DNA from: Helicobacter cetorum
GTDB lineage: Bacteria; Campylobacterota; Campylobacteria; Campylobacterales; UBA6016
Direction: 5' to 3'
DNA: 48,636 bases
NCBI GenBank assembly: GCA_022729705.1
Contig: DZAX01000016.1
Coordinates: forward strand, 1-48,636
Shown here piece by piece: positions 10,939-47,566 of the stretch. Under the pieces are notes generated by a model, which saw only the letters and a program-made list of their open reading frames with translations, was not told the origin of the DNA and ran no database searches. Positions within the stretch are counted from its first letter, which is position 1; every line of letters begins with the position of its first letter. The position numbers were made by a program, and so were the translations under genes.

Positions 10939-12141
<1,203 letters not shown>

Positions 12142-14724: not shown

Positions 14725-14765
14725 ATCTGTTATCCGTTTTTTTGGTGAAATGATACTATCTTATA

Positions 14766-14850
14766 CGTTAACACGAGCAAAGCCCGCGTTAACGGCAGGG
14801 ACATAAATGTCCCTTGCGACCCCCTGAAGCTACTCGCATTCGCGAGAGAG
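14766..14850 (+). repeat. Copy A of the three-hairpin repeat family
   Basis: Hairpin 1 is CGTTAACACG/CGCGTTAACG around the loop AGCAAAGCC (14766-14794). Hairpin 2 is GGGACATAAATGTCCC (14798-14813). After the linker TTGCGACCCCCTGAAGCTA comes hairpin 3, CTCGC/GCGAG (14833-14846). It fills most of the 174-bp gap between ftsL and der, both on the minus strand. Confidence 0.8.
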
Positions 14851-14898
14851 TAGAAAATGTCGGTTTTTGCACATATCAAATCGTATATGGCGGCTAAT

Positions 14899-36063: not shown

Positions 36064-36534
36064 ATGGCACTAAAAAAAAGAGTTTTGTTTTTGTGCGGTA
36101 AGAATGAGGCTAGAAGCCAGATAGCTGAGGCTTTTTTGAACTCTTTGGCGGGTGATACTTTTGAAGCCTACAGCGGCGGACAAGAGATTGGCGAGCTAAA
36201 TCAATTTGCTGTTAGAGCGATGAATGAAATAGGTATTGATATATCCAAAAATGAGAGTAAAAAAGCAATTAAGTTTTTTCGAGACAGCAGAACATACAAC
36301 TATGTAATTACGATTTGGGATAACAAAAAAGACTCAAATCACCCTATATTTCCCGGCGTTACACAAAGAAGACACTGGATTATCGACGACATAGCCAAAT
36401 TTGACTCGCTTGGCGAAGAGGGGCAGATGGAGAAGATGAGGAGTATTAGAGACCAAATCAAACAAAAAGTAGTCGAATGGGTTGCAAATCCTCAGGAAGA
36501 AGACTATATAGATCCTATAATACTTATTGGCTGA
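36064..36534 (+). CDS. ArsC/low-molecular-weight phosphatase-fold protein lacking redox cysteines
   Basis: The catalytic P-loop CGKNEARS (C11, R17) and the general acid region HWIIDD are those of thioredoxin-coupled arsenate reductases and low-molecular-weight tyrosine phosphatases. In ArsC two further cysteines form the disulfide relay in a segment like TLCxxxxxxCP; here it reads TIWDNKKDSNHP (83-94) with no cysteine. The protein therefore should not work by the classical ArsC relay, and may be a phosphatase or a glutaredoxin-independent variant. 156 residues is slightly long. It has its own upstream region, divergent from cobU, with AAGGAG before ATG 36064. Confidence 0.8.
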   Translation: MALKKRVLFLCGKNEARSQIAEAFLNSLAGDTFEAYSGGQEIGELNQFAVRAMNEIGIDISKNESKKAIKFFRDSRTYNYVITIWDNKKDSNHPIFPGVTQRRHWIIDDIAKFDSLGEEGQMEKMRSIRDQIKQKVVEWVANPQEEDYIDPIILIG

Positions 36535-36541
36535 TGGTATG

Positions 36542-36602
36542 CGCTAAGATCGGCAAAAGCCAGTCTTAGCGGCGGGGACATAAATGTCCCTTGCGACCCC
36601 CT
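36542..36602 (+). repeat. Copy B of the three-hairpin repeat family (3' truncated)
   Basis: Hairpin 1 is CGCTAAGA/TCTTAGCG (36542-36549 with 36564-36571) around a GGCAAAAGCC loop. Hairpin 2 is GGGACATAAATGTCCC (36575-36590), followed by TTGCGACCCCCT. The third hairpin is missing. It lies 7 bp after the ArsC-like gene in a convergent gap. Confidence 0.75.
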
Positions 36603-36648
36603 AATTCCGTCTGCCAAAACAACAATCAAAATATTCAAAAAGCATAAA

Positions 36649-40005: not shown

Positions 40006-40025
40006 TAAAATACATTGATGTTACG

Positions 40026-40110
40026 CGCCAAGACGAGCAAAGCCCGTCTTGGCGGCAAGGACATAAATGTCCCTGCACCCCCTAAAGCTACCCGCATTTG
40101 CGGGAGAAGT
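40026..40110 (+). repeat. Copy C of the three-hairpin repeat family (best preserved)
   Basis: Hairpin 1 is the perfect CGCCAAGACG/CGTCTTGGCG with the loop AGCAAAGCC (40026-40054). Hairpin 2 is GGACATAAATGTCC (40059-40072). The linker TGCACCCCCTAAAGCTA leads to hairpin 3, CCCGC/GCGGG with an ATTT loop (40091-40104), then AGAAGT. It lies between convergent rpsR and a methyltransferase gene. Confidence 0.85.
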
Positions 40111-40151
40111 TTTAGGAGCAGCTAGCTGCGAGAGCCGTCTGCTGAAGACCT

Positions 40152-40174
40152 CATTTTGGGCTTTGCCTAAAATG
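40152..40174 (-). repeat. Isolated first hairpin of the repeat family (copy J, reversed)
   Basis: On the minus strand CATTTT and AAAATG pair around AGGCAAAGCCC, which contains the family loop motif GCAAAGCC. It is inverted relative to copy C 42 bp away, so the two form a head-to-head pair at the rpsR end. Confidence 0.5.
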
Positions 40175-40192
40175 TGAGAATTAATAAGATGC

Positions 40193-42135: not shown

Positions 42136-42663
42136 TCAAAACTGTATCGCGCAAATTTTGTTTTTTATATGTGTATATATCTGTGTCGTATTAATCGACG
42201 AATGCCCCAAAAGCTCCTGCACCACAATCAAATCAGCTCCGCCAACAATAAGGGAAGTCGCAAAAGAGTGCCTTAAAACATGGGGAGAGACACCGAGATG
42301 GGCGTTTGTTATCTTAAAAGCCGATATTCTGCTAAGTCTTGCACCTTTATAGTTGAGCCATAAAGTATCATCTTTGAAACTTCTCGCCGCTAGATACATC
42401 TCAACCGCCTCTATCGCCCTTGGAGCCAGCGGAACCATTCTCTCTTTATCACCTTTTGCGGAACGGATTTTGAGCCAACCATCCTCAATAAGCGTATAGC
42501 TATTGCCAAAACAACCAAGAAAAGCCAAAACAGAGTTTGTATCAGCCTCAATGCATGGCTTTTTCAAAAATTTCTCAAAATCGGTTAGGTCATTTTGATA
42601 CGCTAAAACTGTATTTTTGCTAAGAGCTTTTATGATTGCGATATGCTCCAAAAAAAGCTTCAA
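42136..42663 (-). pseudogene. Xer-type tyrosine recombinase with internal deletion
   Basis: The N-terminal SAM-like core-binding part (KALSKNTVLAYQNDLTDFEKF) and the C-terminal catalytic part are both recognisable: K70 (AKGDKER), H128-x-x-R131, H154 and the nucleophile Y163 (TTQIYTHI). The frame jumps from AFLGCFGNSYTLI directly to EDGWLKIRSAKG, so roughly 90 residues holding the rest of the DNA-binding domain and the first catalytic arginine (normally in ATGARISE) are missing. The total is 175 residues where XerC/D-like proteins have about 270-300. It is in frame but should be catalytically dead. Confidence 0.8.
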
Positions 42664-42681: not shown

Positions 42682-43710
42682 CTATTTCGCCAGTTTGAAC
42701 TGCTTATCGTCATAAAATATCGAGTCGCCGCTTGTATACAAAACACCTTCAAACTTATTCTCAAGTAATCCATAAAGCGGAGCCGTAAACTTAAATGTGT
42801 TGCTTGTCGCCAAGTTTACATCGGTGGCAATCAAATACCCCTCTTTTTCAATCGCATAGATATATTTTCCGTATATTACGCCGACAAAACGGGCAAACGG
42901 AAATTTTTTCTCTTTTAATACTTTTAAATCTGCGTCAGTCAAAATAATTTTGCCGTCTTTTGTAAACACATAAACGCCATCTTTAATAAATATAATATTT
43001 GTAACATCAGCTTCCAAAAAGTTTACATATTTTGGGTTGATAGATACCACTTTCGTCGGTGTAGCCGCTATAAGCCTATTGTCTATAACACCCAAAAATA
43101 TTACGTTGTTAAAGTTTTTTTCACTGCTTAGCACAACGTCTTTAACTACTTTTTTCTCATTTGTATCGACTACAAAAAGTTTTCCGTCAAGAGTTGGAAA
43201 TATTACAAGCTCATTTAAAAAATATGGAGCCGCTATTTTTGCGTCAACCGCAAACGAAGATTCGTTTTTTTGCTTAAAGAGTAGTTTTGAGCTGTTTGTG
43301 TCCACCAAAATAGAGCTATTATCGGATGTGACAACGGCTAGCAGACCATCTCCAACGCTACTGGCGGTCGCCGCTTTTGAGTCAAATTTGTACTTTGCGA
43401 CCTCTTTTCCGGCTCCGTCAAATACGGACACATCCCCAAAGTCGTTGCCGGCTGTTACAAAAGAGCCGTTTTTTGAGAAAAACAGATAACCGGTCGGAAG
43501 CGAGAATGTCCCTATGCCGTCTTTTGAGACAAACTGTCCGTTTTTCATAGTAGCGCCCTCGGCGTTTGCGGATATGAGCTTAGAGCCTATTTTTGAATCA
43601 AAATCAACCTTCCCGTCAATTTTTTTTGGCTCAAAATAGCTTTTTGAAGAGCATCCTCCAAAAATAGCCGCCGCAAGCAGAATAGTAATGGCTAGATAGA
43701 CTTTTTTCAT
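42682..43710 (-). CDS. BamB-like outer-membrane beta-propeller lipoprotein
   Basis: A 342-residue lipoprotein: the signal ends in the lipobox AIFGGC, so Cys20 would be lipidated. The body is a series of beta-propeller blades with repeats such as DGKLFVVDTNEKKVVKDV and DGKIILTDADLKVLKEK. A YfgM-like gene lies upstream on the same strand, the same neighbour as in gammaproteobacterial yfgM-bamB, supporting a role in the BAM outer-membrane assembly machine. Sequence similarity to BamB is low, so the call combines fold and synteny. Confidence 0.7.
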   Translation of the reverse strand: MKKVYLAITILLAAAIFGGCSSKSYFEPKKIDGKVDFDSKIGSKLISANAEGATMKNGQFVSKDGIGTFSLPTGYLFFSKNGSFVTAGNDFGDVSVFDGAGKEVAKYKFDSKAATASSVGDGLLAVVTSDNSSILVDTNSSKLLFKQKNESSFAVDAKIAAPYFLNELVIFPTLDGKLFVVDTNEKKVVKDVVLSSEKNFNNVIFLGVIDNRLIAATPTKVVSINPKYVNFLEADVTNIIFIKDGVYVFTKDGKIILTDADLKVLKEKKFPFARFVGVIYGKYIYAIEKEGYLIATDVNLATSNTFKFTAPLYGLLENKFEGVLYTSGDSIFYDDKQFKLAK

Positions 43711-43782
43711 ATAATATACTTCTCCGTTTGCTTAATACCTAATTTTACACCAAAGTTACTTGCAAGCAAAAATGATGCTACA

Positions 43783-43866
43783 CGCAAACACGAGCAAAGC
43801 CCGTATTCACGGCAGGGGCTAATCGCCCCTTGTATCCCCCTAAAGCTACCGGCTTCGCCGGAGACA
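43783..43866 (+). repeat. Copy D of the three-hairpin repeat family
   Basis: Hairpin 1 keeps the loop AGCAAAGCC with a partly decayed stem (43783-43811). Hairpin 2 is replaced by GGGGC/GCCCC (43815-43829), a different but paired stem. After TTGTATCCCCCTAAAGCTA, hairpin 3 is CCGGC/GCCGG (43849-43861). It faces copy E across a tiny ORF. Confidence 0.75.
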
Positions 43867-43901
43867 TAGCTGGTCATTGCGTTTTTGGCGCTTAAGGTCA
43901 G

Positions 43902-43994
43902 TTAAAAACCAAAGCCGCCGGACATGACGACTAGCAAAAGACAAACGCTCAAATAGTAGACACCCACAGTTTTAGCAAGCTCTTTTGTACCCAT
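43902..43994 (-). CDS. 30-residue membrane micropeptide candidate
   Basis: A frame from ATG 43994 to TAA 43902 encodes M-G-T-K-E-L-A-K followed by a hydrophobic helix (VYYLSVCLLLVVMSGGFGF). AGGGAG lies 11-12 bases before the ATG. It sits alone between inverted repeat copies D and E, between the yfgM-like and bamB-like genes. It looks like a one-helix membrane protein; no family is recognised. Confidence 0.45.
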   Translation of the reverse strand: MGTKELAKTVGVYYLSVCLLLVVMSGGFGF

Positions 43995-44020
43995 AAAAAC
44001 ATCAACTCCCTCATAACTCT

Positions 44021-44100
44021 CCCACAAATGCGGGTAGCTTCAGGGGGTCGTAAGGGACATTCATGTCCCTACCACCAATACGGGCTTTGCTCGTATTGGT
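44021..44100 (-). repeat. Copy E of the three-hairpin repeat family (reversed)
   Basis: Read on the minus strand: hairpin 1 ACCAATACG/CGTATTGGT with the loop AGCAAAGCC (44074-44100), hairpin 2 GGGACATGAATGTCCC (44054-44069), linker TTACGACCCCCTGAAGCTA, and hairpin 3 CCCGC/GTGGG with one G-T pair (44021-44034). It ends 8 bp before the yfgM-like gene stop. Confidence 0.85.
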
Positions 44101-44108
44101 GTATAACA

Positions 44109-44708
44109 TCACAATGTGACTATAGAGTGAAACAAATAGTTTGAATACTCTTTAAGCTCAGATGTCGCGCTTATTTTGTTTAGCGTCTCTCTAGCTTTTT
44201 TATAATCTTTTTTCTCTATATATTTATTTGCAAGCACAAAAAGAGCTAAATCTTTGTACATATTCTCTTTATTTGCAGAGTATGCGCTTAGTTTTTCTAT
44301 GTTTTCAGACGCTAGCGCTAGTTCGTATGCCGCCATATCCGCCACAACTCTATTTTTTGAGGTTGCGACGCTCTCATAAGCTTTTTTATCGTTTGTTTTA
44401 TGTGCGGTTTGCAACATATACGCCTCATAAAGCGGGGCGCTTTTGTCTTTAAGCGTCTCTAATGCCGCTTTGTCGTTTGAGTTTTTGATTAGCTTTGCAT
44501 AAGCCTCATTGGCACTTGCTACCCTAGCTTCCTCATAAAATCCATATCCAATATATCCGGCAAAAGAGAGAGCGGCAACGCTTGCGATAGAGATAAGAGC
44601 TATTTTATATTTTGAAACAAACTTCTCAGTTTTTACATATGCCGTCAAAAATCTCTCTTCGTTTCCTATCTCTTCTTTTACGGCTATTACATCCTCTTTT
44701 AAGCTCAT
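44109..44708 (-). CDS. YfgM-like TPR membrane protein
   Basis: A 199-residue bitopic protein: a cytoplasmic N-terminus, one helix (about 34-53, IALISIASVAALSFAGYIGY), then a periplasmic helical-repeat domain (TPR_21-like; LALFVLANKYIEKKDYKKA). YfgM in E. coli associates with the SecYEG translocon and periplasmic chaperones. The BamB-like gene is the next conventional gene downstream, as in yfgM-bamB operons. Confidence 0.72.
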   Translation of the reverse strand: MSLKEDVIAVKEEIGNEERFLTAYVKTEKFVSKYKIALISIASVAALSFAGYIGYGFYEEARVASANEAYAKLIKNSNDKAALETLKDKSAPLYEAYMLQTAHKTNDKKAYESVATSKNRVVADMAAYELALASENIEKLSAYSANKENMYKDLALFVLANKYIEKKDYKKARETLNKISATSELKEYSNYLFHSIVTL

Positions 44709-45678: not shown

Positions 45679-46433
45679 TAAAGCTCGGCAATCTTTGGCG
45701 GTTGTGATTTGAATAGATTTGCCATATATCTTGATACGATAAAATCCACCATCACTTCATCGTGACCTTTTTTGACAACATCCTCTTTTGAAAGTCCGCT
45801 CTCAAAAAGATCAAACATAGCCGCATCAAGGTCTTTGTATTTGTGACCAAGCTCCTCTTCATCGCTTTGTCCTTCCCATAGGTCGGCGCTAGGGGCTTTG
45901 TTGATTATCGCATCTATTACCCCAAGATGTTTTGCAAGGGAAAAAATCTGTGTTTTATACAGCGAACCTATCGGATTGACGCCGCACGCCGTATCGCCGT
46001 ACATTGTGCCGTATCCCAGTATTATCTCGCTTTTATTGCTTGTACCGACCACTATCGCTTTGTCTCGCGCAGATATATCGTATAGTACCGCCATTCTGAG
46101 TCTAGCCGCTAGATTGCCTTTTCTAAGCGGGGTGCGAAGCTCCAACGGGTAGGCGTGAAGCATATTTTTGATGGAGACGTGCTCCGCTTCTATATCAAAC
46201 TTTTCACACAGCATAAGTGCGTGGCTCATGTGCACCGAATTTGTCGTATCGCTTGGTATCATAACAGCCAGCATATTTGCACCAAACGCCTTTTTGCAAA
46301 GCGTCGCAACCACAGCCGAATCCACGCCGCCGGATAGCCCGAGAACCACCCTGTCAAATCCGGCTCTCTCAACCTCGCCCTTTAAAAACAAAACAAGCTT
46401 TTTTTCTATTAGTTCATAATCCATTCTCATCAA
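45678..46433 (-). CDS. nadE: NAD synthetase, ammonia-dependent
   Basis: Amidates nicotinic acid adenine dinucleotide to NAD. The PP-loop is LGLSGGVDSAVVATL, and GTSNKSEIILGYGTMYGD and PSADLWEGQSDEEELG are family motifs. It has no glutaminase domain, so it uses ammonia. 251 residues is typical. It is transcribed upstream of lpxK on the minus strand; a 61-bp gap separates it from the toxin gene. Confidence 0.95.
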   Translation of the reverse strand: MMRMDYELIEKKLVLFLKGEVERAGFDRVVLGLSGGVDSAVVATLCKKAFGANMLAVMIPSDTTNSVHMSHALMLCEKFDIEAEHVSIKNMLHAYPLELRTPLRKGNLAARLRMAVLYDISARDKAIVVGTSNKSEIILGYGTMYGDTACGVNPIGSLYKTQIFSLAKHLGVIDAIINKAPSADLWEGQSDEEELGHKYKDLDAAMFDLFESGLSKEDVVKKGHDEVMVDFIVSRYMANLFKSQPPKIAEL

Positions 46434-46494
46434 TTTGACCTCGCCAAAAAATTTTTAGTGATTTTATCTAAATTCTTTGAGTTTAAATAGTATT

Positions 46495-47142
46495 TTAAGC
46501 TCTTTTTATCTCATCAATTATTTGCGTATACTTTTTATCAAAATCATCCAAGAAACTTTTATCAACTAACTTTATTTTTTTGAGCATAGTTTTTGGAAAT
46601 GTGTCCAATCTATATAACAAATCTTCTTTTTGAAAAGTCAATTTTTCCTTGGCGTATCCCAATATCTTTACCCAATCAACGCTCTCAAACGAAGCAATCA
46701 TATAAATATCAAATACGTCTTTTGGTTCGTCTCTACCGATTATGGCCGTTAGCTTATTGGACAATATATTATCCAATGTGTCTATTTTATAGCCATTTAT
46801 GACAAGCGGAACACCGATACGCTTCACTCTATCGTTTACAAAGTCTATTTGCAGAGGCTGCCCATGCTCGTAAACAACAAAACGCACAAAGTCTTTGCCG
46901 TCAACACTCCTTGCAAAGTCGAGTCTACGCTCGCTGAAAGCGTCAAAAACATCATTAACGGCAAACCTAAATAAATCAGAGTTGTTGGTAAAAAAATCTA
47001 AATCATCGGAATATCTTTTTTCATAATAAAAACGGTTTAGGCATGTCCCGCCCGTAAGATAAAACTCATCAGTTGCGCCAAAAACAGCGTCTAGCGCCAT
47101 GTCTTGCGTTATATATAAATTTTTATAGTCTAAGTCCGCCAT
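46495..47142 (-). CDS. AbiEii-like nucleotidyltransferase toxin
   Basis: A 215-residue nucleotidyltransferase of the AbiEii/AbiGii toxin group. LTGGTCLNRFYYEKRYSDDLDFF (29-51) contains the GG-T...D-x-D motif (D47, D49), and NKLTAIIGRDEPKDVFDIY is motif II (K...R...KD..D). Such proteins act with an antitoxin in abortive infection or plasmid stabilisation, by transferring nucleotides to RNA. It overlaps its partner gene by 13 bp. Confidence 0.88.
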   Translation of the reverse strand: MADLDYKNLYITQDMALDAVFGATDEFYLTGGTCLNRFYYEKRYSDDLDFFTNNSDLFRFAVNDVFDAFSERRLDFARSVDGKDFVRFVVYEHGQPLQIDFVNDRVKRIGVPLVINGYKIDTLDNILSNKLTAIIGRDEPKDVFDIYMIASFESVDWVKILGYAKEKLTFQKEDLLYRLDTFPKTMLKKIKLVDKSFLDDFDKKYTQIIDEIKRA

Positions 47143-47438
47143 CTAAGCTCTTTTATGTCGTTGTTTTCAAAAAGTATAAAATGCTTCAAAATATCATATC
47201 TCCTCTGAAGACGAGATTTTGAAAAAGAGGATAGATTATAATTTTTTAGAAGCGTCCGCTTTGTCTGTTCGTCAAAAATATCTAAATCGTTTATAGCGTC
47301 GCTTGAATGCTCAAAAATTTTTGCAAAAAGAAAGCTTTTTTCGACATCGATACCTTTTGAGGCTATTTGTAACAACTCTTCCTCATCAAACTCATAATCC
47401 CAAAAGCACTCTTTTTTTATCCGTTTCAAATTATACAC
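47130..47438 (-). CDS. Putative antitoxin partner of the AbiEii-like protein
   Basis: A 102-residue soluble protein beginning M-Y-N-L-K-R-I-K-K, immediately upstream of and overlapping the nucleotidyltransferase gene. It contains FDEEELLQIASKGIDVEKSF and KNYNLSSFSKSRLQRRYDIL, with no obvious winged helix, so it is not a standard AbiEi antitoxin (normally near 180-280 residues). The pairing implies an antitoxin or regulatory role; that is inference from context. Confidence 0.7.
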   Translation of the reverse strand: MYNLKRIKKECFWDYEFDEEELLQIASKGIDVEKSFLFAKIFEHSSDAINDLDIFDEQTKRTLLKNYNLSSFSKSRLQRRYDILKHFILFENNDIKELRWRT

Positions 47439-47467
47439 TTAGTAAAAATCCTCGCCAATTTTAGATT

Positions 47468-47566
47468 TTATCTCTTCTTCGCCCTAGACTTAACAAACTT
47501 CTCAGTCATAATATAAAGAATAAAAATAGCCCCGCTAATCATCAAAACATCTATTACTTCGCCCAT
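47468..47566 (-). CDS. 32-residue membrane micropeptide coupled to trmL
   Basis: ATG 47566 lies inside the last codons of trmL in another frame. The frame runs M-G-E-V-I-D-V-L-M-I-S-G to a helix (ISGAIFILYIMTE) and a basic tail KSRAKKR, ending TAA at 47468. One hydrophobic helix plus a basic tail and translational overlap suggest a real small membrane protein; the family is not recognised. Confidence 0.5.
   Translation of the reverse strand: MGEVIDVLMISGAIFILYIMTEKFVKSRAKKR

Follow-up and report, generated by a model that had tools for sequence, protein, structure and literature searches.

Fusion to reading frames and effects at the RNA level have been described for bacterial MITEs (PMC2229807), and in E. 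coli REP elements are known to lie near stop codons (PMC12306157). The repeats described here are of the same class as the bacterial MITEs outlined in PMC2229807, among them Correia/NEMIS, RUP and RPE: on the points covered by that outline they share a length of about 100–170 bp, the absence of a coded protein, a high copy number, terminal inverted repeats, target-site duplications, stable RNA folds and occasional fusion to reading frames. In contrast to these families as outlined there, our repeats have a 7-bp duplication and ends of the form CTGATG..., consist of several separate covarying hairpins instead of one end-to-end stem, often supply the stop codon of the upstream gene, and could not be linked to a parent transposase. 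With the REP elements of E. coli, as presented in PMC12306157, they have in common that hairpin repeats cluster at the 3’ ends of genes, some within 15 nt of the stop codon. They differ from the REP elements presented there by their terminal inverted repeats and target duplications, by the use of their own TGA as stop codon and by the lack of any visible association with RAYT.

We analysed a stretch of 48,636 nt (the window), which corresponds to contig C33 in a draft genome of 2.19 Mb and 75 contigs (G000). On the minus strand the genes are arranged in the order nadE-lpxK-yfgM-[gap]-bamB-integrase-coaX, and the gap between yfgM and bamB contains two facing repeat copies, D and E, together with one short ORF (Table 1). 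In all likelihood this arrangement is best explained by two separate MITE insertions at the ends of neighbouring genes and by the decay of a DUF4010 gene.

Table 1. Features of the window discussed in the text.
Feature	Position	Strand	Description
Family copy	14756..14851	+	
Older, 3’-truncated copy	36532..36604	+	its TGA serves as stop for the ORF upstream (36064-36531)
Copy C with inverted, diverged partner module	40016..40187 (end approximate)	+	insertion absent from G001 and G002
bamB-like gene	42682..43710	-	342 aa
Repeat copy D	43772..43901	+	5’ terminal repeat TGATGCTACACGC, hairpins H1, H2 and H3, 3’ terminal hairpin, 3’ terminal repeat GCGCTTAAGGTCAG
Gene remnant ("micropeptide")	43902..44000	-	3’ tail, ~27 codons long, of a gene for an MgtC/DUF4010 membrane protein
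TTAAAAA (minus-strand TTTTTAA)	43902..43908		presumed 7-bp insertion target of D; contains the stop codon of the gene remnant
Repeat copy E	44011..44111 (inner end ~44011)	-	5’ terminal repeat, H1, H2, H3, outer arm of H3; on the deletion junction
TGA	44109..44111	-	first three bases of copy E, stop codon of yfgM
yfgM-like gene	44109..44708	-	199 aa; 200 aa in G001 and G002

Gene order in related genomes

A bamB match was present in 37 of 40 genomes, and loci were obtained for 30 of these, three of them from within the genus. At all 27 out-of-genus loci yfgM abuts or overlaps bamB with a gap of -16 to +34 nt, a count that stands beside seven further out-of-genus genomes with a bamB match that were left out. 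The other two genomes of the genus that we compared (G001, which is 84% complete, and G002) show the order yfgM-DUF4010-bamB with no such repeat in between. For this locus the closest genomes found are UBA6016 (L009) and Campylobacteraceae 2016_B01_C_14 (L010, with the order found in G002:C18). Here a gene for a 414-aa protein with both an MgtC (PF02308) and a DUF4010 (PF13194) domain starts 3 and 2 nt, respectively, behind yfgM, and bamB comes next. The L009 protein is 100% identical to that of G001, the G002 protein 71% identical. Counting the remnant in G000, the 414-aa protein is matched in 20 of the 40 relatives.

Since yfgM abuts bamB at all 27 out-of-genus loci, the ancestor most likely had the two genes side by side; the genus would then have gained the DUF4010 gene between them, and the genome of the window would have lost most of it again. 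The initial annotation had proposed that the repeats split a gene pair adjacent in other proteobacteria. Comparing the spacing in relatives confirmed that the pair is adjacent elsewhere, but it was apparently the DUF4010 gene that parted it, before any repeat was present. When the 27 loci and those of G001 and G002 were searched with the family model described below, a single repeat was found; it lies upstream of yfgM in G005, which is a complete genome from a different family.

Further differences were noticed in the surroundings. The tyrosine-recombinase gene at 42136-42663 (minus strand) is missing ~255 bp that are present in G001 and G002, with an alignment jump at 42490/42491; at 175 aa its product is therefore probably a shortened or dead Xer-like enzyme. 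Beyond nadE lies an AbiEii-type nucleotidyltransferase gene (PF08843; 46495-47142, minus strand), and the region around it (46431-47543) gave no alignment to G001. One contig from the NadE search, L020, is titled ‘Helicobacter pylori PMSS1’. Its NadE is 50% identical to the query and the linked LpxK has the spacing seen in Arcobacter-like records from that search; the title is probably a misnomer.

Origin of the short ORF

The space between the repeats had been given as 43867-44020, holding only a lone micropeptide ORF. The short ORF is indeed there, but as copy D reaches 43901 the true interval extends only from 43902 to about 44010 and is nearly all gene remnant. On the minus strand the ORF covers 43902-44027 (41 aa from a TTG); the shorter form, 43902-43994, begins at an inner ATG. 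It aligns to the C-terminus of the 414-aa protein with 64% identity over 25 residues, and with 63% over residues 385–411. A search of G000 with the whole protein returned one match, to residues 385–411, and no other part of the DUF4010 gene was found in this protein search of the genome. The matching stretch has kept the native position and frame of the parent gene. No Pfam match was obtained for the 41-aa ORF, and both domains are present in the parent, so that by sequence comparison we regard the ORF as a remnant and not as a member of the MgtC/DUF4010 proteins: it resembles their C-terminal ~27 residues and differs from them in retaining only the last ~7% of the gene. Compared to L009, the window is missing everything from the yfgM stop codon to about base 11485, i.e. 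~1.16 kb or 387 of 414 codons, and copy E occupies the junction of this deletion.

The idea of an independent micropeptide gene could thus not be maintained. Searched for elsewhere, the peptide has a single occurrence in the genome. G001 and G002 encode it within the intact parent gene and have no repeats there, which is the outcome named in the initial annotation as refuting its interpretation. The first 17 aligned codons contain 7 silent and 3 replacement changes between the window and G001, compared to 4 and 7 between the intact pair G001–G002. The last codons of the remnant are diverged and lengthened (31 vs 27 codons). Because the frame is open and the codon differences show no decay, the loss of the DUF4010 gene may be recent.

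Structure of the facing repeats

The initial annotation correctly recognised D and E as an inverted pair. A repeat search identified arms of 45 nt at 43773-43817 and 44067-44111 that are 80% complementary, and both copies fit the family covariance model with 114.6 bits (E, 44016-44111, minus) and 85.2 bits (D, 43773-43866, plus), both being among the 35 sequences from which the model was built. Copy D starts at 43773, or one base earlier, at 43772, when the 12-bp terminal repeat is taken in full. The large hairpin that had been suggested for a transcript across the pair is supported in silico: the transcript is predicted to fold into one long hairpin with -172.5 kcal/mol (z -13.7), and as none of 100 shuffles was as good, the pairing is far from chance. 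Plus-then-minus pairs within 200 bp are found 3 times among the 104 G000 copies, against 1.45 pairs of any orientation under a uniform model that disregards the clustering of copies in intergenic DNA, and these numbers do not show facing pairs to be a recurrent device.

The second target copy of D matches at only 4–5 of 7 positions and is decayed or unclear. Copy E lacks a target duplication and any recognisable 3’ terminal repeat, and the 7-mer upstream of it is unlike TTNNNAA, the target form derived from the G005 copies.

Distribution and covariation of the repeat family

The covariance model from 35 copies (R1), whose own structure holds hairpins H1 and H2 only, matched all 104 scored candidates in G000 and gave 21 matches in G001, 14 in G002, 72 in G005 and 40 in G029. 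Elsewhere among the 40 genomes there were 6 matches in four more genomes, and 31 of the 40 had none. At 1e-6 and with stricter filters, a match was found in 52 of 298 sampled Campylobacterales genomes, belonging to 18 of 81 genera. In H1 and H2 96.1% of cells are paired and 31 cells are changed on both sides, compared to 6.9 in shuffles (0 of 500 as high) and at most 6 in slid controls; the alignment behind these values was not fitted to the structure, the structure itself being derived from the alignment. H3 is fully paired in 30 of 35 copies, with stems such as CCCGC/GCGGG, CCGGC/GCCGG and CTCGC/GCGAG. Its variable loop was misaligned by MAFFT, so that the covariation of H3 is based on this small script count.

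Rfam yielded no match in the window at gathering scores and none in six element-bearing loci with E up to 1, and a known structured RNA family was rejected on these grounds. Plasmid or viral carriage was likewise rejected: copy E matched none of 72,556 plasmid records, and one exact 38-base pattern was absent from viral contigs. No description of the family was found in titles and abstract openings of open-access papers, which is weak evidence of absence.

Several variants were noticed. After the third hairpin a second module, an H1-like hairpin in reverse orientation, is present in the window at 40110-40187 and in L005, L097, L103 and L109, giving inverted composites of ~170 bp. Tandem arrays occur in L105 (G000:C16:15878-16146), L094 and L097; in their inner copies the third hairpin is partly or wholly missing, and the copies join at CATT or CCATTC. 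In G001, beside the flank syntenic to the copy at 36532, lies a diverged element (L206:10382-10468, 27 bits).

Terminal repeats, target duplications and empty sites

In G005 the element mostly measures 123–125 bp (range about 110–135 bp) and has the ends CTGATGTTACGC / GCGTAACGTCAG. Terminal inverted repeats of 12 bp are present there and also in the G000 copies D, L006 and L311; in most G000 copies the 3’ terminal repeat is decayed or not clear. The G005 elements are flanked by target duplications of 7 bp, mostly TTNNNAA, which match at 6 or 7 of 7 positions in 23 of 31 elements, four spurious terminal-repeat pairs being left out of this count. Mean identity of the duplication is 0.794 at k = 7 (n of 66, with each element on both strands and the spurious pairs included) compared to a control maximum of 0.494, and is near control at k = 5, 6, 8 and 9. 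In G000 the full-length copy L311 is flanked by TTAAGAA / TTAGGAA, a duplication at 6 of 7. Empty sites were found as well: copy C is absent from G001 and G002, where its flanks align, and D and E are absent there too.

With their short length, repetition and lack of coded protein, terminal inverted repeats, target-site duplication and an empty site in a relative, the D/E repeats look like copies of a MITE-like mobile element. A transposase acting on these ends presumably exists. Neither such a gene nor an autonomous parent with the same ends was found at 20 stretches around mostly unpaired G005 ends, and no autonomous parent appeared among 19-bp end matches in 18 genomes of the G005 family. 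G005 also harbours a 269-bp sibling MITE (L230-L237) with the same 12-bp ends, 7-bp duplications and the extended ends CTGATGTTACGCAGTATAT, of which there are 8 clear copies and a 239-bp variant (L238).

Position of the repeats at gene ends

The first bases of the element are TGA. We placed 122 distinct copies in G000. For 77 of them an ORF of 70 codons or more runs in the same direction and ends no more than 200 nt away; for 46 of the 77 the ORF ends within 15 nt. In 28 of the 122 copies, all among these 77, the first triplet of the element is the stop codon of the upstream ORF (TGA 24, TAA 4), yfgM being one such case. A TGA triplet ends such an ORF in 24 of 66 elements compared to 61 of 1729 other nearby TGA triplets, counts in which copies of one family are non-independent trials. 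In G005 the supply of stop codons is weaker (27 elements; 4 of 19 five-prime and 2 of 18 three-prime ends with a nearby ORF).

The count at position -3 is by itself inflated, as any in-frame insertion inside a gene scores -3, and upstream ORFs were hence compared to protein family models (20 of the 30 listed). A match was obtained for 18 of the 20 and none for the other two. Of the 18, 16 reach to within 8 positions of the C-terminal end of their best or near-best model. Most of these genes are hence apparently complete, with the element placed at natural ends of genes as a result of selection, of target choice or of both. Complete by this measure are, among others, PurU, UppP, PurC, HemC, WbaP, RNase HI and ProC-like and RsmD-like ORFs; the Hpt and Esterase ORFs end 13 and 44 positions short of the model.

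History of the locus and alternative explanations

According to the preferred explanation, a non-autonomous MITE with a core of three covarying hairpins would have inserted twice into the nadE-lpxK-yfgM-DUF4010-bamB cluster. Copy E would have entered the last codon of yfgM and supplied a new TGA stop codon; yfgM is one residue shorter in the window than in G001 and G002. Copy D would have inserted in the DUF4010 stop codon, where TTTTTAA fits the target. As yfgM and the DUF4010 gene are separated by only 2–3 nt in the relatives, E would have detached the start of the DUF4010 gene from the sequence preceding it, and translation of that gene was presumably cut. The useless gene may then have lost ~1.16 kb, from the 3’ end of E to codon ~387, leaving a tail of 27 codons. 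A misjoin of the 75-contig draft assembly at a ~100-bp repeat is possible.

Instead of an insertion followed by decay, homologous recombination between same-orientation copies at the yfgM stop and inside the DUF4010 gene might have removed the segment in one step and left E as a hybrid copy. The location of E exactly at the junction and the abundance of similar copies in the genome agree with this route; however, it requires a second copy inside coding sequence near codon 387, and the ~10 nt from the end of E to the start of homology match neither, so we consider it possible but unlikely. REP/BIME elements are described as short hairpins bearing a GTAG or CGTC tag, and mobilisation of the present repeats as such elements by RAYT (Y1 transposase) is very unlikely: although the hairpins, the position at gene ends, the inverted and tandem pairs and the presence of Y1-transposase genes in the high-copy genomes G000, G005 and G029 are reminiscent of such a system, a DDE-type transposase is suggested by target duplications of 7 bp and by terminal inverted repeats of 12 bp, and G001 (84% complete) and G002 have copies while no Y1 gene was found in them. 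We rejected this mobilisation as not one element copy lies beside the 11 Y1 loci scanned (mostly ~1.5 kb on each side).

Two further readings give the short ORF a role of its own. It is highly improbable that 30–41 codons of DUF4010 tail, starting in or next to copy E, now encode a functional one-helix membrane peptide. The frame is open without a stop, a purine-rich GGGAG precedes the ATG, and the silent and replacement changes relative to G001 are no worse than those between G001 and G002, but this codon sample is tiny, the final codons are altered and more numerous, the helix is nothing more than the hydrophobic C-terminal end of the parent protein and there is no independent occurrence in the genome. 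Still more remote is the composite unit of the initial annotation, in which D and E would form a single mobile element with the peptide as cargo. Both outer ends of the pair are 5’ terminal repeats, and there are two other plus-then-minus pairs within 100 bp of each other; yet D has two terminal repeats of its own, no duplication is common to the DNA outside D and outside E, and the supposed cargo sits where the parent gene sits in G001 and G002. Gene order in the relatives together with the single occurrence of the peptide led us to exclude a cargo-bearing unit, and D and E read as separate insertions.

Discussion

Insertion plus gene decay at this locus is an ordinary finding, and the element family is the more interesting part. 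For the annotation of the window, the result at this locus removes a false small-protein candidate, and a one-helix ‘micropeptide’ can come from the tail of a deleted membrane gene. One could speculate that the family, which carries a stop codon of its own, is kept at gene ends in Campylobacterales since the termination of translation or the 3’ ends of mRNAs are under the control of its covarying hairpins. The D:E pair would then act as a double-stranded processing site between the envelope genes yfgM and bamB; we regard this as unlikely. The repeat itself is structured, mobile and widespread in Campylobacterales, and its first codon is often a stop codon of the host, which makes effects of mobile hairpins on termination testable outside E. 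coli.
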